A stretch of 64,000 nt of DNA from assembly GCF_016765775.1 (NCBI RefSeq), contig NZ_JAESVN010000007.1, forward strand, positions 56,875-120,874, read 5' to 3'. Under the pieces are notes generated by a model that saw nothing but the letters and a program-made list of their open reading frames with translations, was not told the DNA's origin and did no database searches. The stretch's first letter is position 1; the number at the start of each line of letters is the position of its first letter. Of this stretch, positions 34,264 through 63,950 are shown piece after piece. Made by a program: the position numbers and the translations under genes. The DNA comes from Szabonella alba (GTDB taxonomy: Bacteria > Pseudomonadota > Alphaproteobacteria > Rhodobacterales > Rhodobacteraceae).

Positions 34264-35304
34264 TCAGCCCATGAGGAAACGGCGCATGTCATCGGGATGA
34301 AGCTGATCTTTCAGGACCGCCCGTAGAGCATCGGCACCGTGCAGCCGCAGATCGTCGTTGAAATCACCCTCGACCGGCGTAAGCGATATCGCCTCGATTC
34401 CGAGGCTCGCTGCTCTGGCAATCAAGCTGTCTCTCGCACTGTCCCCGGCCGGGTCGCGATCCCGGATGACATAGAGCCGGCGCAGCGTTGCCGGGAACAG
34501 GGTGGCGGCGAGATGAGCGGCCGAAAGCGCTGCCAGCATCGGCATGTGGGGCAGAACCTGACGGGGCGACAGAACTGTTTCGATGCCCTCTCCGGCGGCG
34601 AGCACGTCACCGGCGGCACCGAAGCGGACGCCGTGGCCGAGAAGGTCGCCCATTGCTCGCCTCGGTGTTTCGACAGGTGCCTTGGCTGAACCGTCGAGGG
34701 CAAGCCAGGTGCGGTGCGCGCCGGTCTGTCGTCCGCTGAGATCGGTGACGGCAGCGACCATCGCCGGCCAGATCTCTGTGGGGGAATGCTCGTCAGGCCG
34801 GTAATAGCACCGGGAATGGTAGCGCAGTGCGGTGATGCCCTCGAGCGACGTGATCGCCCGCCCGCTAAGGTAGATCGCCGCAAGGGTGCTCGGGAGCGGC
34901 TTCGACATGGCGAAGAGCCGCCGAGACGCTTCAGGCGAACCGACCGCCATGCCCGGCACCCGGCCGGTGGGCATTCTGGTTTTTTCCGGCTCGGGATGCG
35001 GGAGCGAGAGGAAACGGTGCGCTTCCTCGGCCACATCCTTGAACTCGACGAGGCCAAGCGCCTCGCGGATTACATCCAGCAGATCGCCATGTTCAGCCGT
35101 GGCGCTGTCGGTCCATTTGCCTGCCGGGCCTTTGGCGCTGTCCTTCAGCCGGACATAGAGGGATCGGCCGGAGGTGTTCCGCACATCCCCGACCAGCCAG
35201 TAATTGCCTGCCCGCCGCCCGGCGGAGAGGTATTCGCGGCAGACCGCCTCGGCCTCGCGGCCGAGACGATGCGCCAGTTCCGATGCCTGGCGCGGTGCCA
35301 TCAT
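34264..35304 (-). CDS. Toprim domain primase-like protein
   Basis: 346-residue protein with an N-terminal DUF7146-like/zinc-free primase region (ELAHRLGREAEAVCREYLSAG). Its C-terminal Toprim domain has the catalytic Glu in LAAGEGIETVLS and the DxD-type motif in LYVIRDRDPAGD. This points to primase or topoisomerase-type nucleotidyl chemistry on the element's DNA. Start at ATG 35304 overlaps the methylase-helicase stop by ATGA; another ATG follows directly. Confidence 0.85.
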   Translation of the reverse strand: MMAPRQASELAHRLGREAEAVCREYLSAGRRAGNYWLVGDVRNTSGRSLYVRLKDSAKGPAGKWTDSATAEHGDLLDVIREALGLVEFKDVAEEAHRFLSLPHPEPEKTRMPTGRVPGMAVGSPEASRRLFAMSKPLPSTLAAIYLSGRAITSLEGITALRYHSRCYYRPDEHSPTEIWPAMVAAVTDLSGRQTGAHRTWLALDGSAKAPVETPRRAMGDLLGHGVRFGAAGDVLAAGEGIETVLSPRQVLPHMPMLAALSAAHLAATLFPATLRRLYVIRDRDPAGDSARDSLIARAASLGIEAISLTPVEGDFNDDLRLHGADALRAVLKDQLHPDDMRRFLMG

Positions 35305-38300
35305 GCAGCCTCCCGCTCGCCGATGCGCTCGACCGGCCAGCGGTCGAATATCCGGGCGAGGACAGCCACGCCGGAGGCATCGGTGGGCACGAACATCTTG
35401 AGCTTCCACGAGATGATCTCGTGGAAGAGGCCATACGCCGTCAGCCGTTCGCGCATCGTGTCGGTGAAACCCGACAATTCGATGCGCAGCGCACCCATCA
35501 CCCGGACCCGGCGAAGCTGGAGGCCCTCTTCAAGATCGAGGATTGTCCGCCCGTCCATCAGCGCCGTGTAGGCATCCTCCGGCGTCAGCAAGGTGGTGCC
35601 GGCCACGGTCACATGGGCGACCCAAGCTGGCGACACGCGGCGGCCGATGATCCTTTCACCCGTATCGGTCTGGAGACGATAGACACGGGTGGACTCGTTC
35701 GGCAGCCGTTTCCAGATCGGCAGCAAGAGGCCTGTGACCATGTGCAGGGCGGCATCCGTGAACTCCGGTACATCCGCCACCTCAGCATTCCAGGCCGAAG
35801 CGAAGTCCTCCCGGTCGGCCTCAACCCAATAAGTCTCGGGCATGGCCTTTACGGGTACATTCTGTGCCTCCATCGGCCGGATCAGCCGGACGCGGCGCTC
35901 GATCTCGCCGTCATCCAGCATAACGCTGGTGGTCGGCACCTGCACGGCGGCACGGCCCGACCGATCATTGACCATCAGGACTGCACGCGGATCGTCCAGA
36001 TACGCCAGCGCATCGGCCAGTGTGTCCGGATGGTTGCGCCTGCGTTCGGTGATGGTCAGCAGGCGGGTTTCGGCGCCAGTGCGCGGGTGGGTGTAGATCG
36101 TCCGGCGGTCGGTGACGATGAAGCTCTCGGCCGTCAGTGTCTCCAGCCCGGCGTCATAGTTGCCGGACGCGATGGCGCCTTCGATCTTCGCCGTCAGGAG
36201 CTGCTCGAAGGCGGTAAACAGGATGCCCTGAAGCTCGATGGTCAGCGCCAGCATCCGGTTGAGGAAGGTCGTGATGCCGGGAAGTTCATCCTTGATCCCG
36301 TTCGAGTCCATCAGCTTCAATCCGGTCGCCGCCTCGAAGCGCTCGAGCGAGCATCCCTCGACCTTGCCGCGCACCAGCAACAGGTAAAGCTGGCGCAGCG
36401 CGTCGCGCGCATAGTGAGATTCCAGATTATCCTCGGGACGGAACAGGCCCTGGCCGCCGGTCTGGCGCTGGCCGCGGGTGATTGCCCCCAGCGTGTCGAG
36501 GCGGCGGGCAATGGTCGAAAGAAACCGCTTCTCAGCCTTCACATTGGTCGAGATCGGTCGGAACAGCGGCGGCTGCGCCTGATTGGTGCGGTGAGTGCGG
36601 CCAAGGCCCTGAATGGCCGTATCCGCTTTCCACCCGGCTTCGAGCAGGTAATGGACGCGCAGCCGGGTGTTCCGCGCCGACAGTTCGGCGTGATAGCTGC
36701 GCCCGGTGCCGCCGGCGTCGGAAAACACCAGGACACGCTTGCTATCATCCATGAACGCCTGCGTCTCGGCGAGGTTGGCGGAACCGGCACGGTTCTCGAC
36801 GACAAGCCGGTCCATGGTGACGCCATTGCCCGGCTTGCGGATGATGCGGCGCGAGCGGCCCGTTACCTCAGCCACCGTATCCGTCCCGAAATGCTGGATC
36901 ACCTGGTCCAGCGCACCGGGCACCGGCGGCAGGCTGGCGAGATGGGCGAGCAGTTCGTCACGCCGGGCGACGGCCTCGCGGCACTCAATCGGCTGACCGT
37001 CGCGCATGACCGGCCGCGACGACATATTGGCCTCGCTGTCCGTAAAGGGCTCGTAGAGCTGAACTGGAAAGGAATGGGCGAGGTAGTCCAGGACATACTC
37101 GCGCGGCGTGATGTCCACGCGCACGTCGTTCCATTCCTCAGTGGGCAGTTCCGCCAGCCGCCGTTCCATCAGCGCCTCGCCGGTCGAGACGATCTGGATG
37201 ACGGAGGAACGGCCTGCTTCCAGATCGGCCGTGATCGAGCGGATCAGCGTCGGGGTTTTCATCGACGTCAGCAGGTGACCGAAGAACCGCTGCTTGGCCG
37301 ATTCAAAGGCGCTGCGGGCTGCGGATTTGGCCTGACGGTTCAGAGTGCCGGTACTTCCGGTGATGTTTGCGGCCTCCATCGCCGCGTCCAGGTTGTTGTG
37401 GATGATGGCGAAGGCCCCGGCATAGGCATCGTAGATCCGGGTCTGCTCTGGGGTCAGCTCATGGTCGACCAACTCGTATTCGACGCCCTGGAACGACAGC
37501 GACCGGGCGGTGTAGAGGCCGAGCGCGCGAAGGTCACGGGCTAGGACTTCCATCGCTGCAACGCCGCCGCCCTCGATGGCCTCAACGAACTCGACCCGCG
37601 TGGCGAAGGGGAAATCCTCACCGCCCCAGAGGCCGAGCCGCTGGGCATAGGCTAGATTGTGAACCGTGGTGGCCCCCGTCGCCGAGACATAGACGATGCG
37701 AGCATCCGGCAGGGCATGCTGCAGACGAAGCCCTGCACGACCCTGCTGCGAAGCGGCGACATCCCCACGATCTCCCTTGCTGCCAGCAGCGTTCTGCATT
37801 GAATGCGCCTCGTCGAAAACCACCACCCCATCGAAGTCGGTGCCCAACCATTCGACGATCTGCTTGACCCTGGAAACCCTTTCTCCACGGTCGTCGGAGC
37901 GTAGCGTGGCATAGGTCGTAAATAGGATGCCCTCCGTCAGCGTGACCGGCTTGCCCTGTGGGAAACGCGACAGCGGCGTGACCAGCAGCCGTTCCATGCC
38001 GAGGGCCGACCAGTCCCGCTGGGCGTCTTCCAGCAGCTTGTCGGACTTGCTGATCCAGACGGCCTTGCGACGGCCCTGCATCCAGTTATCGAGGATGATG
38101 GCGGCGGATTCCCGGCCCTTGCCCACGCCGGTGCCGTCGCCAATGAAGAAACCTTGTCGGAACCGGACGGCATTCTTCGCGTCCTCCGGGGCGGCGCTGA
38201 CAACATCGAACGTATCGTCCACCGTCCAGGCCCCAGCGAGATGATCAGCGTGGGCCTGTCCGGCATAGATTACCGTCTCAAGCTGCGCATCGGACAAGAG

Positions 38301-39647
38301 GCCGTGGATGGTCTTCGGCAGATGCGGCCGGTAGCTGGGCTTCGGTGGCGCCACGCTCGCCATCGCGGCCGACTGGACGAGCTGCGTCGGATGCGCCTGC
38401 GCGCCGGGAATACGGATGACCTGAAGCCCGTATTCCTCATAGATGGCGTCGGAGATATTGCCGTCCTCAGCGGGCAGCCAATCCACGGCTTCGTAGTCAA
38501 GCGGCGCGGCCTCCGGCTCGGCCAGCGGCGCGAGCCGGGTGGATTTCGACGCGCGGTTGACATGGCCGCGCACAGTGCGTGGCGCGGGACCGGCCGGAAC
38601 CACGGCAGCATCGGCGGGCATCTCGACCGGCAGCCGGGCCGGAAGATCGGCAAGCCAGCACATCAGCGTAGCGGTGTCAGGCGCGACGCCCAGCGCTGCG
38701 GGAAAGACAGCGGGATCTTCTGCGGGCAGCTTATCGATGACGGTCAGCCGCGTCGGGATGGTCGCGCCATGTTTGGCATAGACCGAACCGTCGATGGCGG
38801 CGGAGAAGACGACGCGGCCGCGCTGCTGCAACCGAGTGAAGGCATCCCGCCAGGTGGCATTGTCGGAGGCGAAATTCGCGCCGGTAATCGTCACTAGCCG
38901 CCCGCCGGGCGCGAGACGCGCCAGCGCCGAAGCGACATGGCGATAGGCGGCATCGGCGACGCGGCCCTCGACATTGGCCAGCACCGAGAACGGCGGGTTC
39001 ATCAGAACGACGCTGGGGATCTGGCCGGGATCGAGATGGTCGTCGATCTGCGCCGCGTCGAAGCGGGTGACGGGAAGCGCCGGAAAGAGGGAGGAGAGCA
39101 GCGCTGCGCGCGTCTCAGCCAATTCGTTCAGAACCAGCGTCCCACCGGCGATTTCGGCCAGAATGGCGAGCAACCCGGATCCCGCCGAGGGTTCCAGCAC
39201 CCGGTCAGCGGGCGTGATGGCGGCGGCCGTGGTGGCGATCAGGCCGAGGGGGATTGGCGTCGAGAACTGCTGAAAGGTCTGGGCTTCCTCCGACCGGCGC
39301 GTATGCGTCGGCAGAAGCCCGGCGATCATCGTCAGCATCAGCAGGCTCTCGGCCGCAGAGCCGGATTTACGGAGAAGCGCCTTTCCGTATTTGCGCAGGA
39401 ACAGGACGGTCGCGGCTTCGCAGGCATCATAGGCGGTTTTCCAGTCCCAGGCGCCGGTGGCGTCGGAGGCGCCGAAGGCCGCTTCCATCGCGCCGCGCAG
39501 CGTGGCGGCGTCGATGCGCTGGCCACGTTCGAGACGGGGCAGCAGCAACCCCGCCGCAGCGAAGATGGACGCAGCGGTATCGCGGTCGGAGGCAAGCGGA
39601 AGCGGCGCGGTGGCCCGAGCCGTCGCGGATGCGGAAATCATGTTCAT
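35301..39647 (-). CDS. Giant methylase-helicase (strawberry-notch type)
   Basis: 1448-residue protein combining an N-terminal N6-adenine DNA methyltransferase (SAM site around VLEPSAGSGLLAI, catalytic LMNPPFSV) with an SF2 helicase. The helicase has Walker A IGDGTGVGKGRESAA, DEAH box VVFDEAHSMQNAAG, motif III VSATGATT and motif VI-like GLGRTHRTNQAQPP of the strawberry-notch family. It likely methylates and remodels incoming element DNA to escape restriction. Start at ATG 39647 (a second ATG at 39641) with GAGG upstream. It is a hallmark gene of this element family and is coupled to the Toprim gene. Confidence 0.92.
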   Translation of the reverse strand: MNMISASATARATAPLPLASDRDTAASIFAAAGLLLPRLERGQRIDAATLRGAMEAAFGASDATGAWDWKTAYDACEAATVLFLRKYGKALLRKSGSAAESLLMLTMIAGLLPTHTRRSEEAQTFQQFSTPIPLGLIATTAAAITPADRVLEPSAGSGLLAILAEIAGGTLVLNELAETRAALLSSLFPALPVTRFDAAQIDDHLDPGQIPSVVLMNPPFSVLANVEGRVADAAYRHVASALARLAPGGRLVTITGANFASDNATWRDAFTRLQQRGRVVFSAAIDGSVYAKHGATIPTRLTVIDKLPAEDPAVFPAALGVAPDTATLMCWLADLPARLPVEMPADAAVVPAGPAPRTVRGHVNRASKSTRLAPLAEPEAAPLDYEAVDWLPAEDGNISDAIYEEYGLQVIRIPGAQAHPTQLVQSAAMASVAPPKPSYRPHLPKTIHGLLSDAQLETVIYAGQAHADHLAGAWTVDDTFDVVSAAPEDAKNAVRFRQGFFIGDGTGVGKGRESAAIILDNWMQGRRKAVWISKSDKLLEDAQRDWSALGMERLLVTPLSRFPQGKPVTLTEGILFTTYATLRSDDRGERVSRVKQIVEWLGTDFDGVVVFDEAHSMQNAAGSKGDRGDVAASQQGRAGLRLQHALPDARIVYVSATGATTVHNLAYAQRLGLWGGEDFPFATRVEFVEAIEGGGVAAMEVLARDLRALGLYTARSLSFQGVEYELVDHELTPEQTRIYDAYAGAFAIIHNNLDAAMEAANITGSTGTLNRQAKSAARSAFESAKQRFFGHLLTSMKTPTLIRSITADLEAGRSSVIQIVSTGEALMERRLAELPTEEWNDVRVDITPREYVLDYLAHSFPVQLYEPFTDSEANMSSRPVMRDGQPIECREAVARRDELLAHLASLPPVPGALDQVIQHFGTDTVAEVTGRSRRIIRKPGNGVTMDRLVVENRAGSANLAETQAFMDDSKRVLVFSDAGGTGRSYHAELSARNTRLRVHYLLEAGWKADTAIQGLGRTHRTNQAQPPLFRPISTNVKAEKRFLSTIARRLDTLGAITRGQRQTGGQGLFRPEDNLESHYARDALRQLYLLLVRGKVEGCSLERFEAATGLKLMDSNGIKDELPGITTFLNRMLALTIELQGILFTAFEQLLTAKIEGAIASGNYDAGLETLTAESFIVTDRRTIYTHPRTGAETRLLTITERRRNHPDTLADALAYLDDPRAVLMVNDRSGRAAVQVPTTSVMLDDGEIERRVRLIRPMEAQNVPVKAMPETYWVEADREDFASAWNAEVADVPEFTDAALHMVTGLLLPIWKRLPNESTRVYRLQTDTGERIIGRRVSPAWVAHVTVAGTTLLTPEDAYTALMDGRTILDLEEGLQLRRVRVMGALRIELSGFTDTMRERLTAYGLFHEIISWKLKMFVPTDASGVAVLARIFDRWPVERIGEREAA

Positions 39648-39799
39648 GGGGAAGACCTCGGGAGAGCGTGACAGGATCGTGCCGCGCGGCGCTCTCTCTC
39701 GACCGCACCAGCTCAAACCCTTCCCGGCCTCCCTCTGCCTCTCAGGAGGAAGGCATGGACGACATGACAAAAGCGCCCCCGCAGGGGCGCTTGTCGGGA

Positions 39800-46648: not shown

Positions 46649-46953
46649 CGGAAAACCCGTCCGCACTCTCCCTCTCAGGGGGCGTTGCGGGGTCTCCCCG
46701 CTGAAGGGGGTGCGTCGGCAACGCAGTGCCGGCTAGGGGGAAGGCTTTCCCCCATTTCATCCACTGGCACCCCTGGCGAGCAAAACAATCAGACAAGGAC
46801 AACACCTGCGGCATCACCAACGCCTGTGTGGTTGTAATCCACCAATGATATGCGTTTATCTGTCGGGCAGTTGCAGCTCCCACGATCCAGAGCATTGCGC
46901 ACACCGTCAAGAACGCCCCGGATATGACCCGCCGAGTAATCAAAGAGGACAAT

Positions 46954-47271
46954 ATGGCCGATATCGATCTCAACGCCCTGTCACTCGCCGAGCTGAAGCA
47001 ACTGGAAAAGAATGTTGCAAAGGCCATCACCAGCTTCGAAGACCGTCGCAAGGCGGAGGCGCGTGCCAAAGTCGAGGAACTGGCCCGCGAACTGGGCTTC
47101 AGCTTTGACGAATTGGCCGAAGCTGCTCCGACCCGCAAGCGTGCAGCGTCAGCGCCGAAGTATCGCCACCCCGAGAATGCCGAAATTACCTGGTCGGGCC
47201 GGGGCCGCAAACCGGCGTGGATTGCAGACGCGCTTGCTTCCGGGAAATCCCTCGAGGATTTCGCAATCTGA
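46954..47271 (+). CDS. H-NS/HvrA-family nucleoid protein
   Basis: 105-residue H-NS family protein. The N-terminal coiled coil (LSLAELKQLEKNVAKAITSF) mediates oligomerisation. The C-terminal DNA-binding motif has the alphaproteobacterial form (YRHPENAEITWSGRGRKPAW). Start at ATG 46954 with AGAGGA upstream. It is likely a xenogeneic silencer for AT-rich cargo genes next to it. It is the first plus-strand gene after the minus-strand backbone. Confidence 0.9.
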   Translation: MADIDLNALSLAELKQLEKNVAKAITSFEDRRKAEARAKVEELARELGFSFDELAEAAPTRKRAASAPKYRHPENAEITWSGRGRKPAWIADALASGKSLEDFAI

Positions 47272-48247: not shown

Positions 48248-51200
48248 GTGGACGGTTCATCAGCACCGCGAGATATTCATCTACTAACAATTGACGCCTT
48301 GCTTGCAGATCTGATTGGCGGGCGGGCTGTGGCTCTCGGCGGTGGTGAAGAACTCGCGATGGCTTCGGATGACGTGCGGGCGGTCCTCGACTGGTATCGG
48401 CAAAATCGTGGCAGATGGCAGGCAAATCTGTCGGCCGGAGATACCGAGGCGATCATAGACATGATCGGCACGCCCCCGCCGACGATCGAAGCATCGGTCG
48501 AGGGCGGTGGCAGCCGCGCCATCAAGACTTTGCGTCTGGTGAAGGTCGAGGCGCACCGCTTCGCGGGATTACACGCCTATGGCCGACCAAGCGCCCCGCC
48601 GGCATCTTTCGTATTTGAACCGGAAAAGCCCGTGACGCTGCTGGAGGGCGTGAACGGATCGGGCAAGACATCGATCGCCAATGCGATTGCCTGGTGCCTG
48701 ACCGGCCACCTGATCCGGTCGCAGCGGCCGCCAGAAGAGGGGCCGCTAGATTTTGCATGTGAGGTTTTGCGTGACGATGGCGCGACCACGACGCACCCTA
48801 TGTCGGCGATCACCCCGTTGCCGCCCAAATCGGCCGAGCTTCCCGCGGATGGCCAACCTATCCCCGCAGATAGCTGGGTCGAACTGACATTTTTGGATTC
48901 GACTGGCACCCCATTGCCACCGCTACGTCGTTCACAAATCCGCACGACTCGCGGCAAGATCAACGAAACGCCTCCTGATCTGGGTGCTACGGGAATCGAT
49001 CCTATCGCATGGCGGATCGCCACAATCATGCCCGCATTGCTGCCGTTCCTTTCGGTCGGTTCGACATCGCAACTGGGCGAAGCGGTGGCACGACTGACTG
49101 GTCTGGCTGACCTCGTGGACCTCGCGCGGCACGCCGAAAAGATGGCCGGCCGTGTCGCTAAAACCGCGACTCCCGAGCTTGAAAAGCAGAGAGTGGAGAT
49201 CGCGGGCCGCTATCAGCAAGCGGCCGAAGACCTCGCCGCGATCCTCACCGAAACACCGAGTATCGCATTTGAAGGAGATCGGCCGACGATAGATGCCGAA
49301 GGCGCACAAGAACGCATCGCTGAAATCGCGAAGCATTTCGTCGAACTCAAAGCCAAGGCATTGAGCGAAGCGCAAGAGGTGCTCGGTAAAGGGTTCGACG
49401 CGGAGAACAGGCAGGCCCGCGACGATCTTGAAGCCAGCATTCGCCCGGCAATCGAAGGGCTGAAGGTCATCGGCGATTTGCCGTCGATTACCCGCCTTAC
49501 CGCGCTGAAGGTGGACGCTGCTGAGACCGCCAAGGTCGTTGAATTGCTGGCTCAGGTGGAGACTGAAGCCGCGACGCTATCGACGTTGGCTGCCGATCCC
49601 GGTCGGGCGCGTCGTGCGCAGCTCTATGCCAAGGTATCGGCTTGGATGCACGATCATGCCCATGTCGACGACGGTACTTGCCCCGTTTGCGTCGGTCAGC
49701 TTCACGGCGCGTGCGATCCGGTGACAGGGGTGCCCGTAACCGATCATCTCGTCGAGGCGGCACGCGACCGGGAGGTGATTGCGAGGACGATCGCCGAATG
49801 GTCGGCGCATTGGAGCGGTCGCCTCCTTCAGGAACTGCCGCCGGCGATAAGTGGCGAACTGCGCCGTGACCTGCCCACTTCTCCTGCCGCGCTGCTTAGG
49901 GCTGGTCTGGCTGACGATCTTTTTGCAACGGAACCGTTCCGCGGCACCTTGGCGACGTTACGCACTGATGCCGTTGCGTTGATCGACGCACGCCTTGCCG
50001 CGCTTCCAGAATTTCAGGAACCGGCGGGTCGATCGCTGCCCGCTGCTTTGCAAGCAGGCTCTGCCCGGCTGCAAGAGATGATCGTTCGCATCGTGCGTGT
50101 ATTGGCTTTCGCTGAATGGCGGGATCAGAACAGGATCGCGCTGACAGCCTTTGTGCACGTGGTGCGACGCGGCGACGATGGGGATGCAGACGCAGATCGG
50201 GCGATTGGCAGGCGCTTGGCCTCGCTTCTTCGGATCGTGGAAGGGGTAGCCCCGCTCAGTTCAGCAAGTGAACAGGCGCGCCGAATGGAAGCCGCGCGCA
50301 AAGACTATAACGCCAAAAAAGACCGTATCGCGGCTTGCGCGCGAGCGGTCACGGCGCTCAACCTTCTCGTCCCGCTCGGTGGTTTGGCGCAGACGCAGGT
50401 CGACACGCTGCGCCGCAAACTCCACAATCGGTCTGAACACTGGCGCCGCGCGATCTATCGCAATGCCACGACCTTTGCGCCCGACCTAATCGGTACGGAC
50501 ATGAACGCGCGAGGTTTACTTGACCTCAAGGTCGGCCGCGAGGGTGTCACCGCGCCAGCGCAGCACATTTCCAACGCCTCCGCTCTGCGTGGTGCACTGT
50601 TCGGCTTCTTTCTCGCTTTCCGGGAGCATGTGCTTGCAACGCGTGGCGGGCTTTCGCTGCTCATTCTCGACGATCCGCAGGAGTTGCTCGATCACGACAA
50701 CCGTCAGAGGCTGGCGCATGGGCTTGCCGCAGTTGCCGAGGCGGGCGCCCAACTGCTCATCACCACCCATGATCGTCGTTTCGCCCGCTCGGTCGTTGCG
50801 GAGAATCGTGCGGCCGATCGGGTCCAGCATCTATCTGTTCACGCGGTCAACAGCGTGCATCCGACTCTGAGCCTGTCGCCAACCATAGAGGAGGTCGACC
50901 GGCGTCGGCAGTCATTCCTCAACAATCCCGATTCAGCGGTCACGGCGCAGGAATATGCTTCAGATCTGCGCGTTTTCATTGAAGCACGTCTGGGCGATCT
51001 GTTCGATGATATGGCGGAGCCGGCCCATGCGACATCGACGCAGGCGCTCACCCTCTTCCCTCTGCTTGACCGACTGCGCGCGCTGATAGCCAATGGCAGC
51101 GGCGAGTTATTCTCCAATCCGGTGCTAAGGCGTTTCGTCGATGACCCTGGAATGATCGATGGAGCTGCGCCTCGGCGCATCCTGAACAAGGCTCATCACA

Positions 51201-52162
51201 GCGAACGGGCCTCCATCACGTATGTCGATGTTAAAGACGTTGAAGCGGCATTCGTTCGCCTGCGAACCGGGATCGAGAAGGTACACGAGCAGTTCCGGCT
51301 GCATCGCTGGCGTGAACCGCTCGCGTCTGCCGCTGCCTCGGAAACCACTGTCGTCTCGTTGCCGATGATGTTTCGGCCAACATTTTCTGTGCCGATCTGC
51401 CCAGACATTGCAGCTTTCTCTCGCTCGATCCCGTCGGGTGGCACTCAAGACATTGCTACCGAACAACTCAAAGGTGAATGGTTCGAGGGAAAGTCACTAT
51501 TCTACGTTCGGGGCGAAACACTGGGCTTCGCTGTTCCCTCTGGAGCGGTCGCCATCGTGGAAGCGGAAGCCTATCCTGGCCGCGATCGAAATCTTGTGAT
51601 CGCCCGGCATCAGGGTAACGTGCTGGCGCGGCGGCTACTCAAGGCGCCCGGCTCACTTGGTATTTCGCTGGCCGCACAAACACCCGATCCCAGAACTCCG
51701 CGTCCGACAGTGACCTATGAGGAGAGCAAAGTTCGGCTTTTCCGCATTGTCGGTGCCCTTTTCACCGAAATGGCCCCACCACCTGGCGGCGGCGAGGCGA
51801 CAACAATCGACACTGCACCGGAACTCGGTCAGATCGAGGTCGCCTATCGTGTCCGCGAAGAAAGTGCCGTGCCCCTCGCGCTGCCCGGTCAAATCCTGCT
51901 GGGCGGTGCGGAACTGACCCCAAGTGAACTCGACGCTTGGGAAGGCAAACTCGTCGCAGTTACGCTCGACGATGGGACGAGCATCTTCAAGCGCGTCGGC
52001 GCGAGGCTTCCAGGCAGCCTTGCTGGCCTTCGTCAGTTCGAGACGATCGGCGGCCTTGGGTCATCCATCGTGGTCGCTATAGAGGCGCTTGATGCTCCTG
52101 CCAGACTGCCAGCGATAGTTTCTGCTCGCCGGATTTTGGGAGTGCTGTATGATACCCATTAG
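48248..52162 (+). CDS. SMC-like ATPase fused to two tandem S24/LexA-like domains
   Basis: 1304-residue protein. Residues ~1-95 have no recognised fold. An ABC/SMC-type ATPase head starts at ~96, with Walker A GVNGSGKT (134-141) and Walker B LLILDDPQE (D808, D809). Helical arms between them carry a zinc-hook-like CPVC (C478, C481). The C-terminal ~230 residues look like two S24/LexA β-domains. The first (VRGETLGFAVPSGAVAIVE to NVLARRLL) has T1091 and R1128 at the catalytic positions. The second (VREESAVPLALPGQILLGG to GTSIFKRV, ending RILGVLY) keeps an apparent Ser1206-Lys1248 dyad. GTG start with AGGAT upstream. It converges on the HerA operon. No known named system matches by eye; a DNA-damage- or phage-sensing role is inference. 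Confidence 0.75.
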   Translation: MDGSSAPRDIHLLTIDALLADLIGGRAVALGGGEELAMASDDVRAVLDWYRQNRGRWQANLSAGDTEAIIDMIGTPPPTIEASVEGGGSRAIKTLRLVKVEAHRFAGLHAYGRPSAPPASFVFEPEKPVTLLEGVNGSGKTSIANAIAWCLTGHLIRSQRPPEEGPLDFACEVLRDDGATTTHPMSAITPLPPKSAELPADGQPIPADSWVELTFLDSTGTPLPPLRRSQIRTTRGKINETPPDLGATGIDPIAWRIATIMPALLPFLSVGSTSQLGEAVARLTGLADLVDLARHAEKMAGRVAKTATPELEKQRVEIAGRYQQAAEDLAAILTETPSIAFEGDRPTIDAEGAQERIAEIAKHFVELKAKALSEAQEVLGKGFDAENRQARDDLEASIRPAIEGLKVIGDLPSITRLTALKVDAAETAKVVELLAQVETEAATLSTLAADPGRARRAQLYAKVSAWMHDHAHVDDGTCPVCVGQLHGACDPVTGVPVTDHLVEAARDREVIARTIAEWSAHWSGRLLQELPPAISGELRRDLPTSPAALLRAGLADDLFATEPFRGTLATLRTDAVALIDARLAALPEFQEPAGRSLPAALQAGSARLQEMIVRIVRVLAFAEWRDQNRIALTAFVHVVRRGDDGDADADRAIGRRLASLLRIVEGVAPLSSASEQARRMEAARKDYNAKKDRIAACARAVTALNLLVPLGGLAQTQVDTLRRKLHNRSEHWRRAIYRNATTFAPDLIGTDMNARGLLDLKVGREGVTAPAQHISNASALRGALFGFFLAFREHVLATRGGLSLLILDDPQELLDHDNRQRLAHGLAAVAEAGAQLLITTHDRRFARSVVAENRAADRVQHLSVHAVNSVHPTLSLSPTIEEVDRRRQSFLNNPDSAVTAQEYASDLRVFIEARLGDLFDDMAEPAHATSTQALTLFPLLDRLRALIANGSGELFSNPVLRRFVDDPGMIDGAAPRRILNKAHHSERASITYVDVKDVEAAFVRLRTGIEKVHEQFRLHRWREPLASAAASETTVVSLPMMFRPTFSVPICPDIAAFSRSIPSGGTQDIATEQLKGEWFEGKSLFYVRGETLGFAVPSGAVAIVEAEAYPGRDRNLVIARHQGNVLARRLLKAPGSLGISLAAQTPDPRTPRPTVTYEESKVRLFRIVGALFTEMAPPPGGGEATTIDTAPELGQIEVAYRVREESAVPLALPGQILLGGAELTPSELDAWEGKLVAVTLDDGTSIFKRVGARLPGSLAGLRQFETIGGLGSSIVVAIEALDAPARLPAIVSARRILGVLYDTH

Positions 52163-52528: not shown

Positions 52529-54310
52529 CTATTCTGGCTTCCACTTTGGCTCCTGCGCGCGCCATGCTGCGACAAGATGATCATAGTCTTCAGGCCCTCG
52601 AGTGCGCTTCCAGCTGTCTGCGACAAGTGGATCTGCGCTGCTCGGCCGACGGTTTTCAGGTGGTAGGGTGACGCGGCAGCGCACTGGCAACTGCGCAGCT
52701 TCACCAGTTATTATGGCTTCCCCTGTTCTAAGAACTGAGAGGCTGTCGGCTATACCGCTCAAATTATCGGGCAAAGCGGCTTGTACTTTGCTCCGGTCGG
52801 TCGAATTGGTGAGGCGTAACGCAATAAAAGTGCCGCACTGCGAGAGAATGGTATCGTCAATTTCAGAAGGGCGTTGGCTGACAATCATTGCGCCGATACC
52901 GAACTTGCGCCCCTCTTTCGCGATTCTCTGAACCATCTCGCGCGCGGGATTATCGGCTTCTCGACCAAGATACCGGTGCGCCTCTTCCATGACCACAAGT
53001 TGTGGTCGACTTCTACCACCCTCGTTGCGCTCGCGACCCCAGAATAGTGCCTCATAGATAATCGACAGGATAGCACCGATTAAATCTAGAAGGACGGTGC
53101 TGGGGATGCCCGAAAGGTCTAGAACGGTTATTGCCTTCTCGTGGCCGATCCAGCTTTCGAGAAGGGCGGGAAGATCACTGGCTACATGGCCGGTCAGGTC
53201 CGGCTCCCATTCGCCGGGCTTTAGCAAGAACTCGAACTGACGATCGAGCATGCGTGATCTCATGCGATCAAGCTGTTTGCGGATGCCGAGCACACCGATG
53301 TTATTTTGGTATGGTGCCGAATTCGTCGTCGTGTGCGGCTGATAGGTTGGGGGGCGCAAAGTAGCCGCGTCTCCGGGGAGCACGATCGCTGGCTGCGTCT
53401 TTGCCTGATCGAGCCAAGTCTTGACCTCTGGATCGATCAATTCCAGCCAAAGGCTACTCAAGCTATAAGGAATCGGGGTGTCGACGGTCATCGAATTCGC
53501 GTCTACGCCAGGCAACTTGTCTGTCTGCGCTATTGTGCTTTTTGCGGCGAAGATCTTGTCGAGAATTGCGGTTGTCGCACGATCGTCCATCTTCCCGCAT
53601 AGAAAGTTGAGGATTTCGGTTGGTCGAAGTGCCCAATACGGAATGGCCAGCTTCTTCTCTCCGTCTCCGGGCGTGATCCGGAAGACCTCAGCATTGTCCC
53701 TTAGCGCACTGGCATATTCGCCATGGATATCGAGAAGCAGAATGCGCGCGCTCGGAAATCCCATTTCGCCCGGCGCCGAGATCGACCGTAACAGGCTTGC
53801 GACAGTTGTGGATTTGCCCGATCCGGTTGAGCCAAGCACAGCGCTATGACGCGTGACTAGTTTGTCGAGATCTAGCCGAACCGGGATGCTCTCGGCGTTG
53901 GCAAGCCGCCCTACGACCACCTGACCCGCAAACTCCGCGCCATAGATCTTCGCCAGATCCTCCTCGGTGACGAGATGCACCTCATCGTTCACGTTGGGAT
54001 ATTGGCTGATGCCGCGCTCGAATGAAGCTTCGACAATCTCCCCGACAAGTTGAATGGTTAGCCATCTTTCTCCACGGTCGATCGCATCGGTCAGAGCCGC
54101 GGGTGTCGCACTTGCACCGACCTCAGATATGATTGCGTAGAGGTCATGATAACCCTGAGGAATCCGCACGAAGCTACCGACCTGACCGACCCGGTAGCTC
54201 CTTCCCCCAATGATCGCAATGCCCGAGGCCACGCCCTCGAACTGCCGAACACTTACGGTTGAGCCTGCGACAGAGCCTACGTGGCCGAGGAGGGTCGGAG
54301 CACTCATCAT
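52529..54310 (-). CDS. herA: HerA-like FtsK/HerA-superfamily ATPase
   Basis: 593-residue DNA-translocase-type ATPase. It has an N-terminal HAS-barrel-like β region (residues ~1-150), Walker A LGSTGSGKST (159-168), Walker B PQLVVMEEAHRYLG and a C-terminal arginine-finger region (IVSQRPSEIDDTILSQCGT). The start overlaps the SIR2 stop by ATGA. HerA paired with a SIR2 protein forms the SIR2-HerA antiviral complex, in which HerA assembles as a hexamer with SIR2 NADase subunits. Confidence 0.92.
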   Translation of the reverse strand: MMSAPTLLGHVGSVAGSTVSVRQFEGVASGIAIIGGRSYRVGQVGSFVRIPQGYHDLYAIISEVGASATPAALTDAIDRGERWLTIQLVGEIVEASFERGISQYPNVNDEVHLVTEEDLAKIYGAEFAGQVVVGRLANAESIPVRLDLDKLVTRHSAVLGSTGSGKSTTVASLLRSISAPGEMGFPSARILLLDIHGEYASALRDNAEVFRITPGDGEKKLAIPYWALRPTEILNFLCGKMDDRATTAILDKIFAAKSTIAQTDKLPGVDANSMTVDTPIPYSLSSLWLELIDPEVKTWLDQAKTQPAIVLPGDAATLRPPTYQPHTTTNSAPYQNNIGVLGIRKQLDRMRSRMLDRQFEFLLKPGEWEPDLTGHVASDLPALLESWIGHEKAITVLDLSGIPSTVLLDLIGAILSIIYEALFWGRERNEGGRSRPQLVVMEEAHRYLGREADNPAREMVQRIAKEGRKFGIGAMIVSQRPSEIDDTILSQCGTFIALRLTNSTDRSKVQAALPDNLSGIADSLSVLRTGEAIITGEAAQLPVRCRVTLPPENRRPSSADPLVADSWKRTRGPEDYDHLVAAWRAQEPKWKPE

Positions 54311-55530
54311 ACTACCGGCGCACCAGTTGCTGTAGGCAGCGGTGCTACCGCTGGTGGTGTCGGCACAGTTTGTGTGGGAAACGCTTGAACCGACCGCGAT
54401 GCCGCGAAGAATCTGGCAAAGGGCTCTATTGCTCCGAGCATGAAGCTGCCGTCTTTGTCGAGATAGGTCGACCTTATCGGCCCCCAGTCCTTGTTAGGTA
54501 GTTCAACTGGCGCCTTCCATGCACCGCGAATGCCATTAACCTTGGCCTGGTCTCGCGCATACACGCTGAAGTTTGGCAGGCGGCGAGCGAGATCGCACGC
54601 CGGCCCTTCTTCTTCTAGAGTTTTGAACTGGAAAGCAAAGACGCTGGAGGATGGATTCGCTGCGAGTGCCTCGTCCAGTCGGGCAGCAATATGTGCGTCC
54701 GCAAAGGAAAAGCCGATAGAGATCAGTAGTGTGTCGGGTGTGAGCAAGAACGCACGAAGACGATCAAGCAGCGCAGCATAAGGGGCCTTCTGAGTTTGAT
54801 CGTATTTCAGATGTTCGGGGAAGACGAGGTGACTTGCCGAACTTTGGCCCGTTCGGATCACTTCCCCTTTCTCGCTCGCACGCCAGCCGAGCGAGCCATG
54901 AAGCTTCCAGAGCCGCGTCCATCGCGCGGGAAGATCGCTGCGCGACACCGATACGGGGTCAAAGAAAGGTTCGCGACCGCCCGTGAAGCCATCAAAGTAC
55001 GGTGCTCGAACGGACTCAAACGCCTCTTCGAACAGCAGGTCGTAATTCGTCGTGAAAATTTCTACCGGATAGTCACGCATAGTGCCGGTGATCCAGTTCA
55101 CGAGATCTGCATAGGCTGAACCGGTACCCGGCAATCGGACGTCCACTATCTTGCCGATCTCTGAACAGATTGCTTCGCCGAAAGTGGCGAAGCCGAGGCC
55201 ATCGAGATTGTGAACTTTCGCCACGCCGATCACTTGGCTCAGAGAGCGAACCCGCGAAAGCATAGTCTCGATGTCGTGCTTGTCGAGTTCTGATTTCAGG
55301 CCATCAATCTGTTGCTGATAGGTTGGTCCAAGCGTTGTGAGAACCTTATCAGTAAGGCCCGCCACCGCTGGGATAAGCGGATAGGTACCATCAGGCTTGG
55401 CCATGCCAGCAGAAGCTCCGGCGCCAACCAACAGCCCGATCCGCTTGCGGCCCTGGGCAATAATCGTCCTCAGCGCCGCCATATACTGATCAGGATTGTG
55501 AACACTGACTGTCAATTTACGCTTCTCCAA
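54307..55530 (-). CDS. SIR2-family NADase of a SIR2-HerA defence system
   Basis: 407-residue SIR2-fold protein with NAD-binding GAGAS (36-40), FTTNYDLLFEE (TNYD 161-164) and the catalytic-type His in KLHGS (H211), plus LISIGFSFADAH. Such proteins deplete NAD during phage infection. The C-terminal ~80 residues are Pro/Ala-rich. The start is a TTG, either at 55530 or at 55515, where a GGAG lies 9 bases upstream; the SIR2 core is unaffected. It follows the WYL gene by 57 bases and overlaps herA by 4. Confidence 0.92.
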   Translation of the reverse strand: MEKRKLTVSVHNPDQYMAALRTIIAQGRKRIGLLVGAGASAGMAKPDGTYPLIPAVAGLTDKVLTTLGPTYQQQIDGLKSELDKHDIETMLSRVRSLSQVIGVAKVHNLDGLGFATFGEAICSEIGKIVDVRLPGTGSAYADLVNWITGTMRDYPVEIFTTNYDLLFEEAFESVRAPYFDGFTGGREPFFDPVSVSRSDLPARWTRLWKLHGSLGWRASEKGEVIRTGQSSASHLVFPEHLKYDQTQKAPYAALLDRLRAFLLTPDTLLISIGFSFADAHIAARLDEALAANPSSSVFAFQFKTLEEEGPACDLARRLPNFSVYARDQAKVNGIRGAWKAPVELPNKDWGPIRSTYLDKDGSFMLGAIEPFARFFAASRSVQAFPTQTVPTPPAVAPLPTATGAPVV

Positions 55531-55587: not shown

Positions 55588-56379
55588 TCACGTTACCACT
55601 TCCTCGATCTTTTCCAACTCTAGCCTAGATTGCTCATCAGTGAGGCGCCATCGCTTGATGACGTAAAATACGAGTGCTTTTCTAGTTTCTAAGGTAATGC
55701 GTGTTCGGTCTTGAAAGCCGTACTCTAGCCGGACGACCCGCGCCTGTGCGTCCGAGAGATCTGAACGCGGACATATCCACATGCGCACGAAACTATGCCA
55801 GTCAGTGTCGAAAGGAAGGGGTGACACTCTATCCCGTGTTCCAACTGGGCCTTGGTTGGCCATTCTGATCGGAAGATAATCCCGGTAAGCCCCATGCTTA
55901 TGGCTCCAGGCCCGAAGATGGATCGCCTCTCCATCGTAATGAAACCGAACCGGGCTGATCCATTGCGGCTCGGAAGCACCGCTGCTCATGGACGTATAGC
56001 TGATCTGGATGTCCCGCTCGCCTCTCATTGCGCGGTAGAGTTGAGCAATGACGGCGCAGTTCATCACCCGATTGGGCAGTGGGATGCTTGCGCCAAGGCA
56101 GTCTGTGCCCTCGCTGAGCAAGTCGAATACCTGTTCGGGGCCGGCATCGGACAGTGCCCTGTGGTCGCTCCCAGAAAAATAGGTCTTCTCCGTCGCGTCA
56201 TACACCGGAGGTGTCTGCGTTAGCGACAGATAGGTGCGGAAGTCTACGGCCGCCTGCGCCATGGAGATGTCGAAGCGCTGCCTTAAGTCCCGACGATTTG
56301 CCTGACCTCTCCATGTAAGACATTGATCCAAGAACAGGATCCGTTCGCGCTGCGCATGTTTCAGAGATTCAAGGTTCAT
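55588..56379 (-). CDS. WYL-domain transcriptional regulator
   Basis: 263-residue regulator with an N-terminal winged-HTH region (RANRRDLRQRFDISMAQAAV) and a WYL-type ligand-binding domain (RDIQISYTSMSSGASEPQWI, YDGEAIHLRAWSHKHGAYRD). WYL regulators such as BrxR and CapW sit at the head of defence operons and repress them. It is first in the leftward SIR2-HerA-KTSC unit and divergent from sbcD across 72 bases, so it may control both. ATG at 56379. Confidence 0.85.
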   Translation of the reverse strand: MNLESLKHAQRERILFLDQCLTWRGQANRRDLRQRFDISMAQAAVDFRTYLSLTQTPPVYDATEKTYFSGSDHRALSDAGPEQVFDLLSEGTDCLGASIPLPNRVMNCAVIAQLYRAMRGERDIQISYTSMSSGASEPQWISPVRFHYDGEAIHLRAWSHKHGAYRDYLPIRMANQGPVGTRDRVSPLPFDTDWHSFVRMWICPRSDLSDAQARVVRLEYGFQDRTRITLETRKALVFYVIKRWRLTDEQSRLELEKIEEVVT

Positions 56380-56393
56380 GCGAGGAAGACTAC

Positions 56394-56421
56394 TTGACTC
56401 GTCGCCCCTCGTCCATACAGT
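56394..56421 (+). promoter_or_regulatory. Candidate sigma-70-type promoter for sbcD
   Basis: TTGACT (56394-56399) and TACAGT (56416-56421) separated by 16 bases, 30 bases upstream of the sbcD ATG at 56452, in the WYL-sbcD divergent spacer. The spacer is markedly AT-richer than its surroundings. Confidence 0.45.
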
Positions 56422-56451
56422 AACAACACGTATAGAAACTGGATGCCATAG

Positions 56452-57588
56452 ATGCGATTACTTCATACCGCTGATCTTCACCTAGGCCGCCAGTTCATGG
56501 GGCTCAGCCTTGAAGCGGACCACGAGTACGTTCTGGGCCAGATCGTTGATGCCTTGGTGGCGGAGCATGTGGATGTGCTGGTGATCGCTGGCGATGTGTT
56601 TGATCGCGCCTCGCCTCCCAATTCGGCGATCCGTCAGTTCAACCGTTTCCTGAAGCGCGTGGCAGAAGAGACTGCAGCCGCCGTCGTGATGATTTCTGGC
56701 AACCATGATTCCGGTGACCGGATCGAGGCGATGTCTGTCTTCTCGACTGCGTCGCGGGTGCTGGTGCGCGGGATTGCGACTGCGGCAGAGGTCCCATTGG
56801 TGCTAAGTGACGCGCATGGCGATGTCGCCTTCTCCGCGCTGTCCTTTTCCTATGAGTACGCAGCGCGTGAAGTGTTCGGGGATGAAGGCATAAGCACGCC
56901 TGCCGACGTTATCACGGCTCAGATCGCTGCAGCGAGAGCGTATGTGCCGAAGGGCGCGCGGTGGGTCGTGGTAGCCCACGCCTTCGTCGCAGGAGGGGCG
57001 GCTGGAGAAACTGAGCGCGCCCTGACCCGGGTCGGCGGTATTGAAACCGTTCCCGCCGAAGTCTTCGCCGGGGCGACCTATGCAGCGCTGGGGCATTTGC
57101 ACAAGCCGCAAGAAGTGAGCGCGTCCCATATCCGGTACTCGGGATCTCCCCTCGCATTTGGTTTCGACGAGGCAGGCGCCGAAAAGTCCATGATCATTGT
57201 CGATCTGAACGCGGAGACCGTCGATATTCGCACCTTGCCGTTCCGACCGCTGCGGCAGGTGCGCTCGCTGACCGGGGCCTTTGCGGACCTTCTGGCGGGT
57301 ACCCCCTCGGAGGATTTCATCCAGGCTATCCTGACCGATGCGAGCCCTTTGATCGATCCGATGAAGCGGCTGCGGGTTACCTATCCGAATGCCTGCCATC
57401 TGGCCTATGCCAAGCAAGCGCGAGCGCAGGAAGTCAAGACGCTTGGTACGGGGTCGGCAGTGGTCACACCTGTCGAAATGATCGGTGACTTTCTAAAGGT
57501 AGTGCGCGGTCGGGACGCGAGCGGTCCGGAAATGGCGATCCTCGCCGACAAGCTGCATGTGGCCGTGTCCGCGGAAGATCGAACATGA
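56452..57588 (+). CDS. sbcD: SbcD/Mre11-like nuclease subunit
   Basis: 378-residue Mre11-type phosphoesterase, nuclease half of the SbcCD complex that cleaves DNA hairpins and protein-blocked ends. Metal-binding motifs are present in order: ADLHLGR, GDVFDRASPP, GNHDSGDR, VVAHAF and GHLHKPQ. Start at ATG 56452. Its stop overlaps sbcC by ATGA. Its presence in a mobile cargo region beside a defence operon may mean an accessory, not housekeeping, copy. Confidence 0.92.
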   Translation: MRLLHTADLHLGRQFMGLSLEADHEYVLGQIVDALVAEHVDVLVIAGDVFDRASPPNSAIRQFNRFLKRVAEETAAAVVMISGNHDSGDRIEAMSVFSTASRVLVRGIATAAEVPLVLSDAHGDVAFSALSFSYEYAAREVFGDEGISTPADVITAQIAAARAYVPKGARWVVVAHAFVAGGAAGETERALTRVGGIETVPAEVFAGATYAALGHLHKPQEVSASHIRYSGSPLAFGFDEAGAEKSMIIVDLNAETVDIRTLPFRPLRQVRSLTGAFADLLAGTPSEDFIQAILTDASPLIDPMKRLRVTYPNACHLAYAKQARAQEVKTLGTGSAVVTPVEMIGDFLKVVRGRDASGPEMAILADKLHVAVSAEDRT

Positions 57589-60500
57589 GACCTATCCGCC
57601 TTTCCCTCCAGGCCTTCGGTCCCTTCGCCGCGAAGGAGGTCGTCGATTTCCGGTTCGCGTTGGAGTCCGGTCTGTTTGGCGTCTACGGCCAGACCGGGGC
57701 AGGCAAATCGACCCTGTTCTCGGCTATTTCCTTCGCGTTGTTCGGGGAGCCGACAAAGGCCGAACAAGAGCCACGGTCGCTGCGCTCGGACCACGCCGCC
57801 GCGGATCTTCCCACCGAGGTCGAACTGGTCTTCGAGCTTGGCGCCAAGACCTATCTGATCCGCCGTCGTCCGGCGCAGGAACGTCCGAAGGCGCGTGGAG
57901 AAGGGATGACGGCAGATGCGGCCGAGGCCTCACTGTTCGATGTCACCGGGATCGCGCTTGATGCGTTGGGATCGGGGCAGTCAGGCCGGGTCATCGCCGA
58001 AAGGAAGGTCTCTGTCGTCGGGCAGGAGATCGAGAAGCTGCTGGGCTATGGCGCGGATCACTTTCGCCAGATCGTGCTTCTGCCCCAAGGCAAGTTCGAG
58101 ACGTTCCTCGCGGCCAAGACCGATGCCCGCGTCGAGATCCTTCGAGAATTGTTCGACGTGAAGGTCTATCGCGACCTAGCCGCCCGTCTGAAGGAAGAGG
58201 CCGCTCAGGCTGAGCGCAACTTGCGGGAACAGCGCGCGCTTTACATCGTCCGTCTCCAGGAACGGGGCTTTGAAAGCATCGAGGCGCTGGAACTGGCGAT
58301 GGAGGGCGCCGCGGCGCAGGTCGGTGAAAGGCAGCAAGCTCAGGGCATCGCGGATGCTGCGGCAGAAGCCGCTCGCCAGGCTTTGACCAAGGGCGAGCAG
58401 GTCGAAAAGGCCTTCGCCGCCGTCGATGCCGCACGCCAGGCGCTGGACAGTCTAGAGACGAAGACGGTTGAGATTGACGCTTTGGCGAAGCGGGTAGAGA
58501 CGACCGGGAATGCCTTGCAGGCGCGCGATATTGAAACGGCATGGCAAGAGGCGGAGCGGGACCTGAGGGATGCGGCGAAGGCCGTGACCGGCACCGAGAC
58601 GGATCTGGGAACCGCGATCCAGGCACGGCAGGACTCCGAGCGGGACTTGGCCGAGGCCAAGGCGGGTGATGGAAAGAGGCAGGCGGTTCAGGCGGATCTG
58701 ACGCGGCTGGAGGAGATCGAGCAGAGAGTCGGGCAGGCCGCGCTGCTGAAAGCCTTGTTTGAAGATGCCGCGAAGGAGGAGGGCAGGGCGAAACGCGCGC
58801 TGGCCGAGACCGAAAGGGCGCACGAGACGCTCCAGTCGCGACGCGACGCGACCGATACGGGGCTTGAACAGGCGCGCAAGACCGAGGCGTCCCGCGGCAA
58901 GCTGACCAGCGACTTGGCCGAGGTGGACCGGGAGCTGAGTAAATCCGGGGCGCTTACCAGGGCAGAACAGGCGGTCTCAGAGGCCGAAGAAAACGTTGAG
59001 GCCGCATCGGATGCGCTGGCGGCGAAGACGAAAACGGCCGAAGCTGCCGAGTTGGCGCTGACCGAGGCCGAGGCACGCCTTACACGCACCCAGGCGATCA
59101 TCCTGGCGGAGAAACTGACCGAGGGTGCCCCATGTCCCGTCTGCGGATCCCCCGACCATCCCGCGCCGGCCGAAGGCACGCCAGAGCAGTCCGGCCTGAC
59201 CGAGGTGTTCCGGCAGGCGCAGGCGGACGCGAGGGCTGAATCGGAGGCCCATATCCGGGCCGAAAGCGCGTTGGGCCATTGCCTGACGCGGCTTGACGAA
59301 AGGAAACGAGCTCTGTCCGAACAGGACCGGCCAGCGCGCTCAGTCGCCAGTCTCGAGACCGACAAGTTGCGGCTGGAGGGGGAGCTTGCTGCGATTGGGG
59401 ATACCGTCGACATTGACGCGATGGCAGAACGGCTTGACCGGCTGAAGCAGGATCTGAGGGATGCCGAAGCTGCCGCGGCCACGGCGCGGACCAGAGCAGG
59501 CAGGGCTGAGACAGCCTCGGCCACGGCAAGAGCAAAGCACGAAGCGGTGGTCGGGTCCTTGCCCGAGGAGTTGAGATCGCCCGAGGCGGTCGCGGCCCGG
59601 CGTGATCTTCTGCTCAGCACCCGGAAGCAGCTGTCCGAAGCGCTTGACCGGGCGGAACAGGGTGACCGAAAGGCGAGCGAGGTGCTGACCAGGACGCAGG
59701 AGCAGCTTGAGGCCGCAAGGCGCGCAAGCGAAACGCAGCTGCGGCGCGCGGAAAAGGCGCGCAATGACTTCACCGCCCGACTGGAAGAGGTTGGGCTGGA
59801 TGAAGCGACATACGCGGCCTGTAAGGTGCATTTCCCGACGCTCGTCGAGGACCGAGAGACCGTACGCGCCCATCGCGAAAAGCTAATTGCGGCGCAGACG
59901 ACCTGGCAGGATGCCGCGGTCGCCTGTGCGGAGCGTGAGCGGCCAGACCTCGCCCCGCTCGAGCAAACACAGGAAAGTACTGCGCATGCAGTAAAGGCGG
60001 CCAACATCGCCTTGGCCGAGGCGCAAACGGACGTCGACGCATTGATGCATTTCAAGCGGTCATTGGCCGAGGCGCTTGCCAGAACCGAAGAACTCGAGGC
60101 CAAAACAGGGCCGCTCCGGGGTCTGGCCGATCTAGCCAACGGCAAGAACGAGCTCAGCATGACGCTCGAAACTTTTGCCATCGCGGCCATGTTCGATCAG
60201 GTGCTTGAGGCGGCGAACCTGCGGCTCGACCTCATGATGCGCGGACGCTATCGGCTCGAGCGCGGGGTCGAGGCATCCGGCGGACGCGGCAAGCGCGGGC
60301 TGGAGATCGAGGTCTTCGACGTCAATACCGGCAAGGCACGCCCGACTGCAACCTTGTCGGGCGGCGAGACCTTCATCTCCGCACTGGCCCTGGCGCTAGG
60401 GCTCGCCGATGTGGTCGAGAGCCTGTCCGGCAAGATACGGATGGACACGATCTTCATCGATGAAGGCTTCGGCAGCCTCGACACCGAAAACGGTGCGGGC

Positions 60501-60665
60501 ACGCTCGACCAGGTCCTTCAGGTTCTTGCGGCATTGACCAAAGGCAGCCGGGCAGTGGGACTGATCTCGCACGTAGGACTGGTGCAGGAGGCCATCCCGC
60601 AAGGTTTCTACGTTCGGTCGACTCCGGGCGGCAGTAAGGTCGAGGAGCGGAGGGGGCTGTCGTGA
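57585..60665 (+). CDS. sbcC: SbcC/Rad50-like ATPase
   Basis: 1026-residue Rad50-type ATPase: Walker A GQTGAGKST (35-43), long coiled-coil arms, zinc hook CPVCGSPDHP (C517, C520), signature ATLSGGETFISALAL and Walker B TIFIDEGFGSLD. It forms the SbcCD exonuclease/endonuclease with the preceding gene. Overlaps of 4 bases with both neighbours show tight coupling, including to the small zinc-ribbon gene downstream. Confidence 0.93.
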   Translation: MRPIRLSLQAFGPFAAKEVVDFRFALESGLFGVYGQTGAGKSTLFSAISFALFGEPTKAEQEPRSLRSDHAAADLPTEVELVFELGAKTYLIRRRPAQERPKARGEGMTADAAEASLFDVTGIALDALGSGQSGRVIAERKVSVVGQEIEKLLGYGADHFRQIVLLPQGKFETFLAAKTDARVEILRELFDVKVYRDLAARLKEEAAQAERNLREQRALYIVRLQERGFESIEALELAMEGAAAQVGERQQAQGIADAAAEAARQALTKGEQVEKAFAAVDAARQALDSLETKTVEIDALAKRVETTGNALQARDIETAWQEAERDLRDAAKAVTGTETDLGTAIQARQDSERDLAEAKAGDGKRQAVQADLTRLEEIEQRVGQAALLKALFEDAAKEEGRAKRALAETERAHETLQSRRDATDTGLEQARKTEASRGKLTSDLAEVDRELSKSGALTRAEQAVSEAEENVEAASDALAAKTKTAEAAELALTEAEARLTRTQAIILAEKLTEGAPCPVCGSPDHPAPAEGTPEQSGLTEVFRQAQADARAESEAHIRAESALGHCLTRLDERKRALSEQDRPARSVASLETDKLRLEGELAAIGDTVDIDAMAERLDRLKQDLRDAEAAAATARTRAGRAETASATARAKHEAVVGSLPEELRSPEAVAARRDLLLSTRKQLSEALDRAEQGDRKASEVLTRTQEQLEAARRASETQLRRAEKARNDFTARLEEVGLDEATYAACKVHFPTLVEDRETVRAHREKLIAAQTTWQDAAVACAERERPDLAPLEQTQESTAHAVKAANIALAEAQTDVDALMHFKRSLAEALARTEELEAKTGPLRGLADLANGKNELSMTLETFAIAAMFDQVLEAANLRLDLMMRGRYRLERGVEASGGRGKRGLEIEVFDVNTGKARPTATLSGGETFISALALALGLADVVESLSGKIRMDTIFIDEGFGSLDTENGAGTLDQVLQVLAALTKGSRAVGLISHVGLVQEAIPQGFYVRSTPGGSKVEERRGLS

Positions 60666-62153: not shown

Positions 62154-63950
<1,797 letters not shown>

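Follow-up and report, generated by a model that had tools for sequence, protein, structure and literature searches.

In Lamassu defence systems, the Rad50-like protein LmuB is combined with effectors of diverse kinds, some of them predicted proteases, and this Rad50-like sensor, which often carries a zinc hook, is thought to unleash the variable effectors (PMC10586767). Here, we describe a gene of Szabonella alba which appears to join a sensor of this type and a candidate effector in a single chain. It occupies positions 48248..52162 (forward strand) of a 64,000-nucleotide stretch of DNA, referred to as the window (assembly GCF_016765775.1, contig NZ_JAESVN010000007.1, forward strand 56,875-120,874), and encodes an SMC/Rad50-like ATPase of 1304 residues with a GTG start and two C-terminal LexA/S24-like domains. 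That a Rad50/SMC-like ATPase and tandem LexA-like domains are found in one chain is nearly certain. Rechecking of the codons confirmed the open reading frame and the motif positions given in a preliminary description of this DNA (GVNGSGKT 134-141, CPVC 478-481, D808/D809, T1091, R1128, S1206 and K1248), and the sequence RILGVLY is indeed located near the C-terminal end. We tentatively propose that the product is a single-protein, Lamassu-like immune switch: when the ATPase binds invading DNA, the peptidase of the second LexA-like domain would be turned on. A literature search, with one relevant survey not covered, returned no description of an ATPase-LexA peptidase fusion.

Both C-terminal domains are predicted to adopt the LexA fold. 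AlphaFold models of domain 1 (residues 1036-1176; 51353..51775, forward strand) and domain 2 (residues 1180-1304; 51785..52159, forward strand) reached predicted local distance difference test (pLDDT) values of 87 and 86, and matched LexA, UmuD and CI structures with Z-scores of up to 10.6 and 9.3, respectively, in agreement with the S24-like C-terminus put forward in the preliminary description. The Pfam family Peptidase_S24 (PF00717) matched the window protein at residues 1072-1135 with an E-value of 0.086 and 13 bits, below the cut-off of 23.3 bits, and its C-terminus alone with an E-value of 0.0027 and 17.8 bits, which is still below. The S24 model thus fell short of its cut-off for the protein itself but was recovered in its relatives, where it matched 18 of 22 diverse homologues at E<=1, with 4.8e-7 as the best value, and also 37 of 46 C-termini, for which the best value was 1.4e-6. 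For the S24 profile, 48 of 50 C-termini were used, with L072 and L102, whose sequences came from the wrong strand, left out. No LexA chain was found by sequence among solved structures, either with the whole protein or with the C-terminal profile. Because PF00717 matches occur in homologues, both domains model as LexA folds and Ser1206 and Lys1248 are invariant as detailed below, the S24 reading is, judged from sequence and models, beyond chance.

The structural matches include RecA-bound LexA, UmuD and CI (8gms, 8gmt and 8gmu). They would suit an arrangement in which RecA filaments on single-stranded DNA, and not the protein's own ATPase, provoke cleavage by domain 2, with the SOS signal switching the ATPase on or off. 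This arrangement is improbable, as the classic cleavage dipeptide is missing and no exact match to the LexA box consensus GTTC-N7-GTTC was found in the window, the latter point bearing on SOS transcription only.

Conservation was assessed in two alignments. The full-length alignment contained 110 of 121 homologues, namely those longer than 1250 residues, with the homologue list comprising the best 120 of 298 matches. For the C-terminal alignment, 45 of 54 sequences were kept after L060, L053, L033, lengths outside 230-300 residues and redundant rows had been dropped; together with the window protein these make 46, and the remote sequences L111, L112 and L114 (26-27% identity over the C-terminal part) bring the set to 49. 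The predicted nucleophile of domain 2, Ser1206 (51863..51865, forward strand), and its predicted general base, Lys1248 (51989..51991, forward strand), are each present in 110/110 full-length sequences and 49/49 C-termini, so that the lack of conservation which the preliminary description named as a refutation is not observed. They are spaced 42 residues apart and are in register with the Ser and Lys of S24 peptidases. As only 12 of the 269 columns of the C-terminal alignment are invariant, two named columns would both be invariant by chance in about 0.2% of cases; the dyad is kept over an identity range of 26%-85%. Letters across 64 open reading frame pieces of the loci gave a similar picture, with Lys1248 found in 57/57, Arg1128 in 59/59 and Ser1206 in 56/58 pieces, and the two Ser1206 exceptions (one Cys, one Thr) come from pieces of L047 and L060 with a broken reading frame. 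Catalysis by domain 2 is likely.

The corresponding positions of domain 1, spaced 37 residues apart, are occupied by Thr1091 (51518..51520, forward strand) and Arg1128 (51629..51631, forward strand). Arg1128 is invariant (49/49 C-termini and 110/110 full-length homologues) and the nucleophile position drifts, being Thr in 24, Asn in 18 and Ser in 7 of the C-termini, and Thr in 78 and Ser in 32 of the full-length homologues. Based on this invariant Arg in place of Lys and the drifting nucleophile position, domain 1 is a pseudo-peptidase without a dyad. Thr1091 and Arg1128 had been suggested to replace the nucleophile and the lysine, which holds for their positions and spacing but not for a variant active site, since one position drifts and the other does not. 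Similarly, the notion of a pseudo-S24 pair fits domain 1 only, as domain 2 keeps its dyad. In another interpretation, the two LexA-like folds would both serve as scaffolds or sense ligands, with Ser1206 and Lys1248 kept for binding or structure instead of cutting. The persistence of a dead domain 1 with an invariant Arg throughout the family would be consistent with such a role, but neither catalytic position of domain 2 varies down to 26% identity whereas the nucleophile position of domain 1 has drifted, so that we consider this interpretation quite unlikely.

The linker between the two domains contains a candidate target for domain 2. Glu1183-Ala1184 (51794..51799, forward strand) is the single near-invariant point of an otherwise variable linker ahead of domain 2, with Glu found in 49/49 and Ala in 48/49 C-termini, while the next most conserved positions within residues 1173-1192 are Gly1180 (41/49) and Pro1178 (36/49). 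The distance from Ala to Ser is constant at 22 residues in 47 of the 49 sequences. The pair is also present in plasmid-borne homologues from Pseudomonas veronii (L117), Mesorhizobium (L118) and Bradyrhizobium (L119), which were examined separately and are outside the 49. In S24 and S26 enzymes, the P1 position is usually taken by Ala. Glu-Ala precedes domain 2 roughly at the place of the LexA cleavage loop but is closer to the Ser, as the cleavage site of LexA lies ~35 residues before it. We infer that Glu1183-Ala1184 may act as a scissile or docking site. Several observations weigh against self-cleavage at this point. Glu-Ala starts a confident strand of the model and may have a structural role. 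Further, the classic Ala-Gly/Cys-Gly cleavage dipeptide is absent from residues 1036-1205 of the window protein, and it is not conserved among the 49 C-termini, where it occurs at most 40 residues from the Ser in 12 sequences and at 32-40 residues in 2. Because this site is missing, we use the label LexA/S24-like and do not call the protein an S24 self-cleaving repressor.

The missing dipeptide would be easier to reconcile with a trans-acting protease effector, with the ATPase as DNA sensor and one or more proteins of the host or the invader as targets of domain 2, in the manner of a separate LmuA, while the protein itself would stay uncut. A Pfam scan of the window protein found no other enzymatic domain, there is no conserved partner gene in 60 loci, and the pairing of LmuB with diverse effectors including predicted proteases provides a precedent (PMC10586767). 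However, the conserved linker Glu-Ala at constant spacing offers a site for cleavage of the protein itself. Known S24 peptidases are self-cleaving. A trans-acting effector is thus rather unlikely, and self-cleavage is slightly favoured over trans-cleavage.

The ATPase part carries a Walker A motif (GVNGSGKT, residues 134-141; 48647..48670), a zinc-hook-like CPVC motif (residues 478-481; 49679..49690) and a Walker B motif (DDP, residues 808-810; 50669..50677), all on the forward strand. Residues G134, N136, G137, G139, K140 and T141, C478 and C481, and D808, D809 and P810 are each found in 110/110 full-length homologues. The ABC signature of Rad50 reads SGGE. At the position assigned by eye to this signature, the window protein has SNAS (residues 775-778; 50570..50581, forward strand), with N776 and S778 each present in 56/57 and S775 in 47/57 of the locus pieces with a letter there. 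Pfam detected AAA_23 at residues 122-162 (E-value 1.4e-9) as well as SMC_N and AAA_21, both below their own cut-offs, and the N-terminal region (residues 1-95; 48248..48532, forward strand) had no Pfam match in the window protein. The closest solved structures by sequence were Rad50-type ATPase chains (E-value 1.2e-4 and weaker); 5da9 and 5dac are presumably Rad50.

In the proposed immune switch, the zinc hook would pair two molecules and the ATPase heads would close on phage or plasmid DNA, whether at ends, at forks or at some other structure. The closing heads would shift the fused S24-like pair, which would resemble a single-chain LexA dimer with an inactive and an active half, and Ser1206 would then attack a peptide bond. 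The favoured substrate would be the protein's own linker at Glu1183-Ala1184, with another protein as the main alternative. As an outcome, a fragment of ~13 kDa would be freed, or the ATPase would be locked in an active state, and the infected cell or the invader would be stopped. This reading is suggested by the predicted LexA folds, the conserved dyad, Arg and Glu-Ala, the lack of a fixed partner, the defence-rich neighbours and the patchy distribution, the last three of which are described below. Its most detailed version, in which the ATPase reads invading DNA and fires an asymmetric one-chain LexA-type dimer at the linker Glu-Ala, with a DNA motor replacing RecA, is speculative and should be regarded as doubtful.

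The genes found next to this family point towards defence. Large neighbours (at least 300 residues, nearest first, one per cluster; 90 of 250 candidates) were compared with PADLOC models alongside 90 control proteins, drawn from 12 genomes of the same class in which 20 stretches had been picked arbitrarily. The neighbours matched 44 models at 1e-50 and 147 at 1e-15 compared with 3 and 7 for the controls, where the controls represent the genome average, not other islands, and the counts refer to models, several of which can match one protein. The 25 neighbour models listed include Drt1a, SngC, Hhe, a CBASS cyclase, JetA, PtuA, BrxHI, DndC, DpdF and ThsB. The defence context proposed in the preliminary description is thereby upheld, and a defence role is likely. 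No recurrent neighbour longer than 70 residues, LmuA- or LmuC-like ones included, was found in 60 loci. The most widely shared neighbour clusters occurred in 4/60 loci, and clusters located predominantly inside 3 kb of the gene were shared by no more than 3. Homologues of the window neighbours were rare across 68 loci (SbcD in 2, SbcC in 2, WYL in 1), and the SIR2, HerA, H-NS and pRiA4 genes of the window had homologues in 0/68.

Within the window, the ATPase gene is adjoined by a SIR2-HerA pair (52529-55530), recognized by PADLOC with E-values of 2.8e-161 for HerA and 4.4e-180 for SIR2. An H-NS gene is located at 46924-47271, and the next gene upstream is pRiA4b ORF-3-like. An H-NS pair had been described, but the window contains a single H-NS domain (47155-47268) and the genome's only other H-NS is encoded on another contig. 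A block consisting of a WYL regulator, SbcD and SbcC is also found beside the gene (55588-60665); the same block lies beside a relative on a Croceicoccus plasmid (L115:10895-15948, ~41-56% identity) and is possibly a separate module.

The right two thirds of the window (20792-63950) encode a TraG-type coupling protein, a relaxase, a RepA-type initiator, ParB and ArdC, with a serine recombinase (62154-63917) at the right end overlapping a tRNA-Met (63874-63950), and the ATPase gene apparently rides on an integrative mobile element. A Strawberry-notch-type helicase of 1489 residues (35301-39770; AAA_34, Helicase_C_4) is also encoded within the element. This location, the occurrence of the gene on conjugative plasmids and the Rad50-like motor would be compatible with a non-defence role in which the product helps to maintain or repair plasmids and integrative elements. 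Such a role has little probability, given that the neighbours match many unrelated defence systems above the level of control proteins and that no recurrent element gene is found alongside.

A genome scan yielded 59 loci, chiefly in Alphaproteobacteria, with other carriers including Pseudomonas, Achromobacter, Ralstonia, Acidovorax, Granulicella and a Nitrospira bin. One uninterrupted open reading frame, matching from residue <=30 to >=1295, was found in 42 loci, 13 were interrupted or truncated and 4 were cut off by contig ends. The broken copies (L012, L019, L022, L033, L034, L040, L043, L047, L050, L052, L053, L057 and L060) may reflect a gene that is costly to keep or may be assembly errors. 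The gene is rare, being present in 3/289 genomes of the class, 1/41 relatives and 2/398 genomes of the phylum, with its own genome included each time. It was further found on 17 of 72,556 plasmid records, of which 7 are predicted to be conjugative and 7 mobilizable, while none of 50,697 phage records matched at 1e-10. Among the matches listed, relatives with 90-92% identity occur in Paracoccus, Kaistia, Pannonibacter and Thalassospira, which suggests horizontal transfer.

If the proposed switch is correct, the protein would unite an entire sensor and effector within a single chain, provide a second way of firing the LexA fold without RecA, and serve as a tractable model of the way in which Rad50-like sensors, that of Lamassu included, relay a DNA signal to an effector. 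The pairing of a pseudo and an active domain and the conserved linker motif allow sharp predictions at the level of single residues.

Compared with known systems, the closest likeness is to Lamassu, in which a Rad50-like sensor ATPase likewise acts together with an effector, in some cases a predicted protease (PMC10586767). The LmuB profile matched the window protein only weakly (E-value 3.5e-15, 54 bits, best stretch 348-854), and other SMC-like profiles match too. Unlike Lamassu, which consists of two or three genes, the window system is a single gene; its product has 1304 residues compared with ~650 for LmuB (PMC10586767), its effector-like part is a C-terminal tandem LexA-like fold, and recurrent LmuA- or LmuC-like neighbours are lacking in the 60 loci. 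With LexA, UmuD and CI the protein shares the predicted fold of both domains and, in domain 2, the in-register Ser and Lys, but it differs from them in its fusion to an ATPase, its tandem copies, one of them without a dyad, and the lack of an Ala-Gly dipeptide. SbcC/Rad50 has the Walker A, CPxC hook and Walker B motifs in common with the window protein, which in contrast has no conserved SbcD/Mre11 partner (SbcD in 2/68 loci) and carries SNAS at the signature position, an N-terminal extension and a LexA-like tail. As a system, it would be a new form of the known combination of a Rad50-like sensor and an effector.

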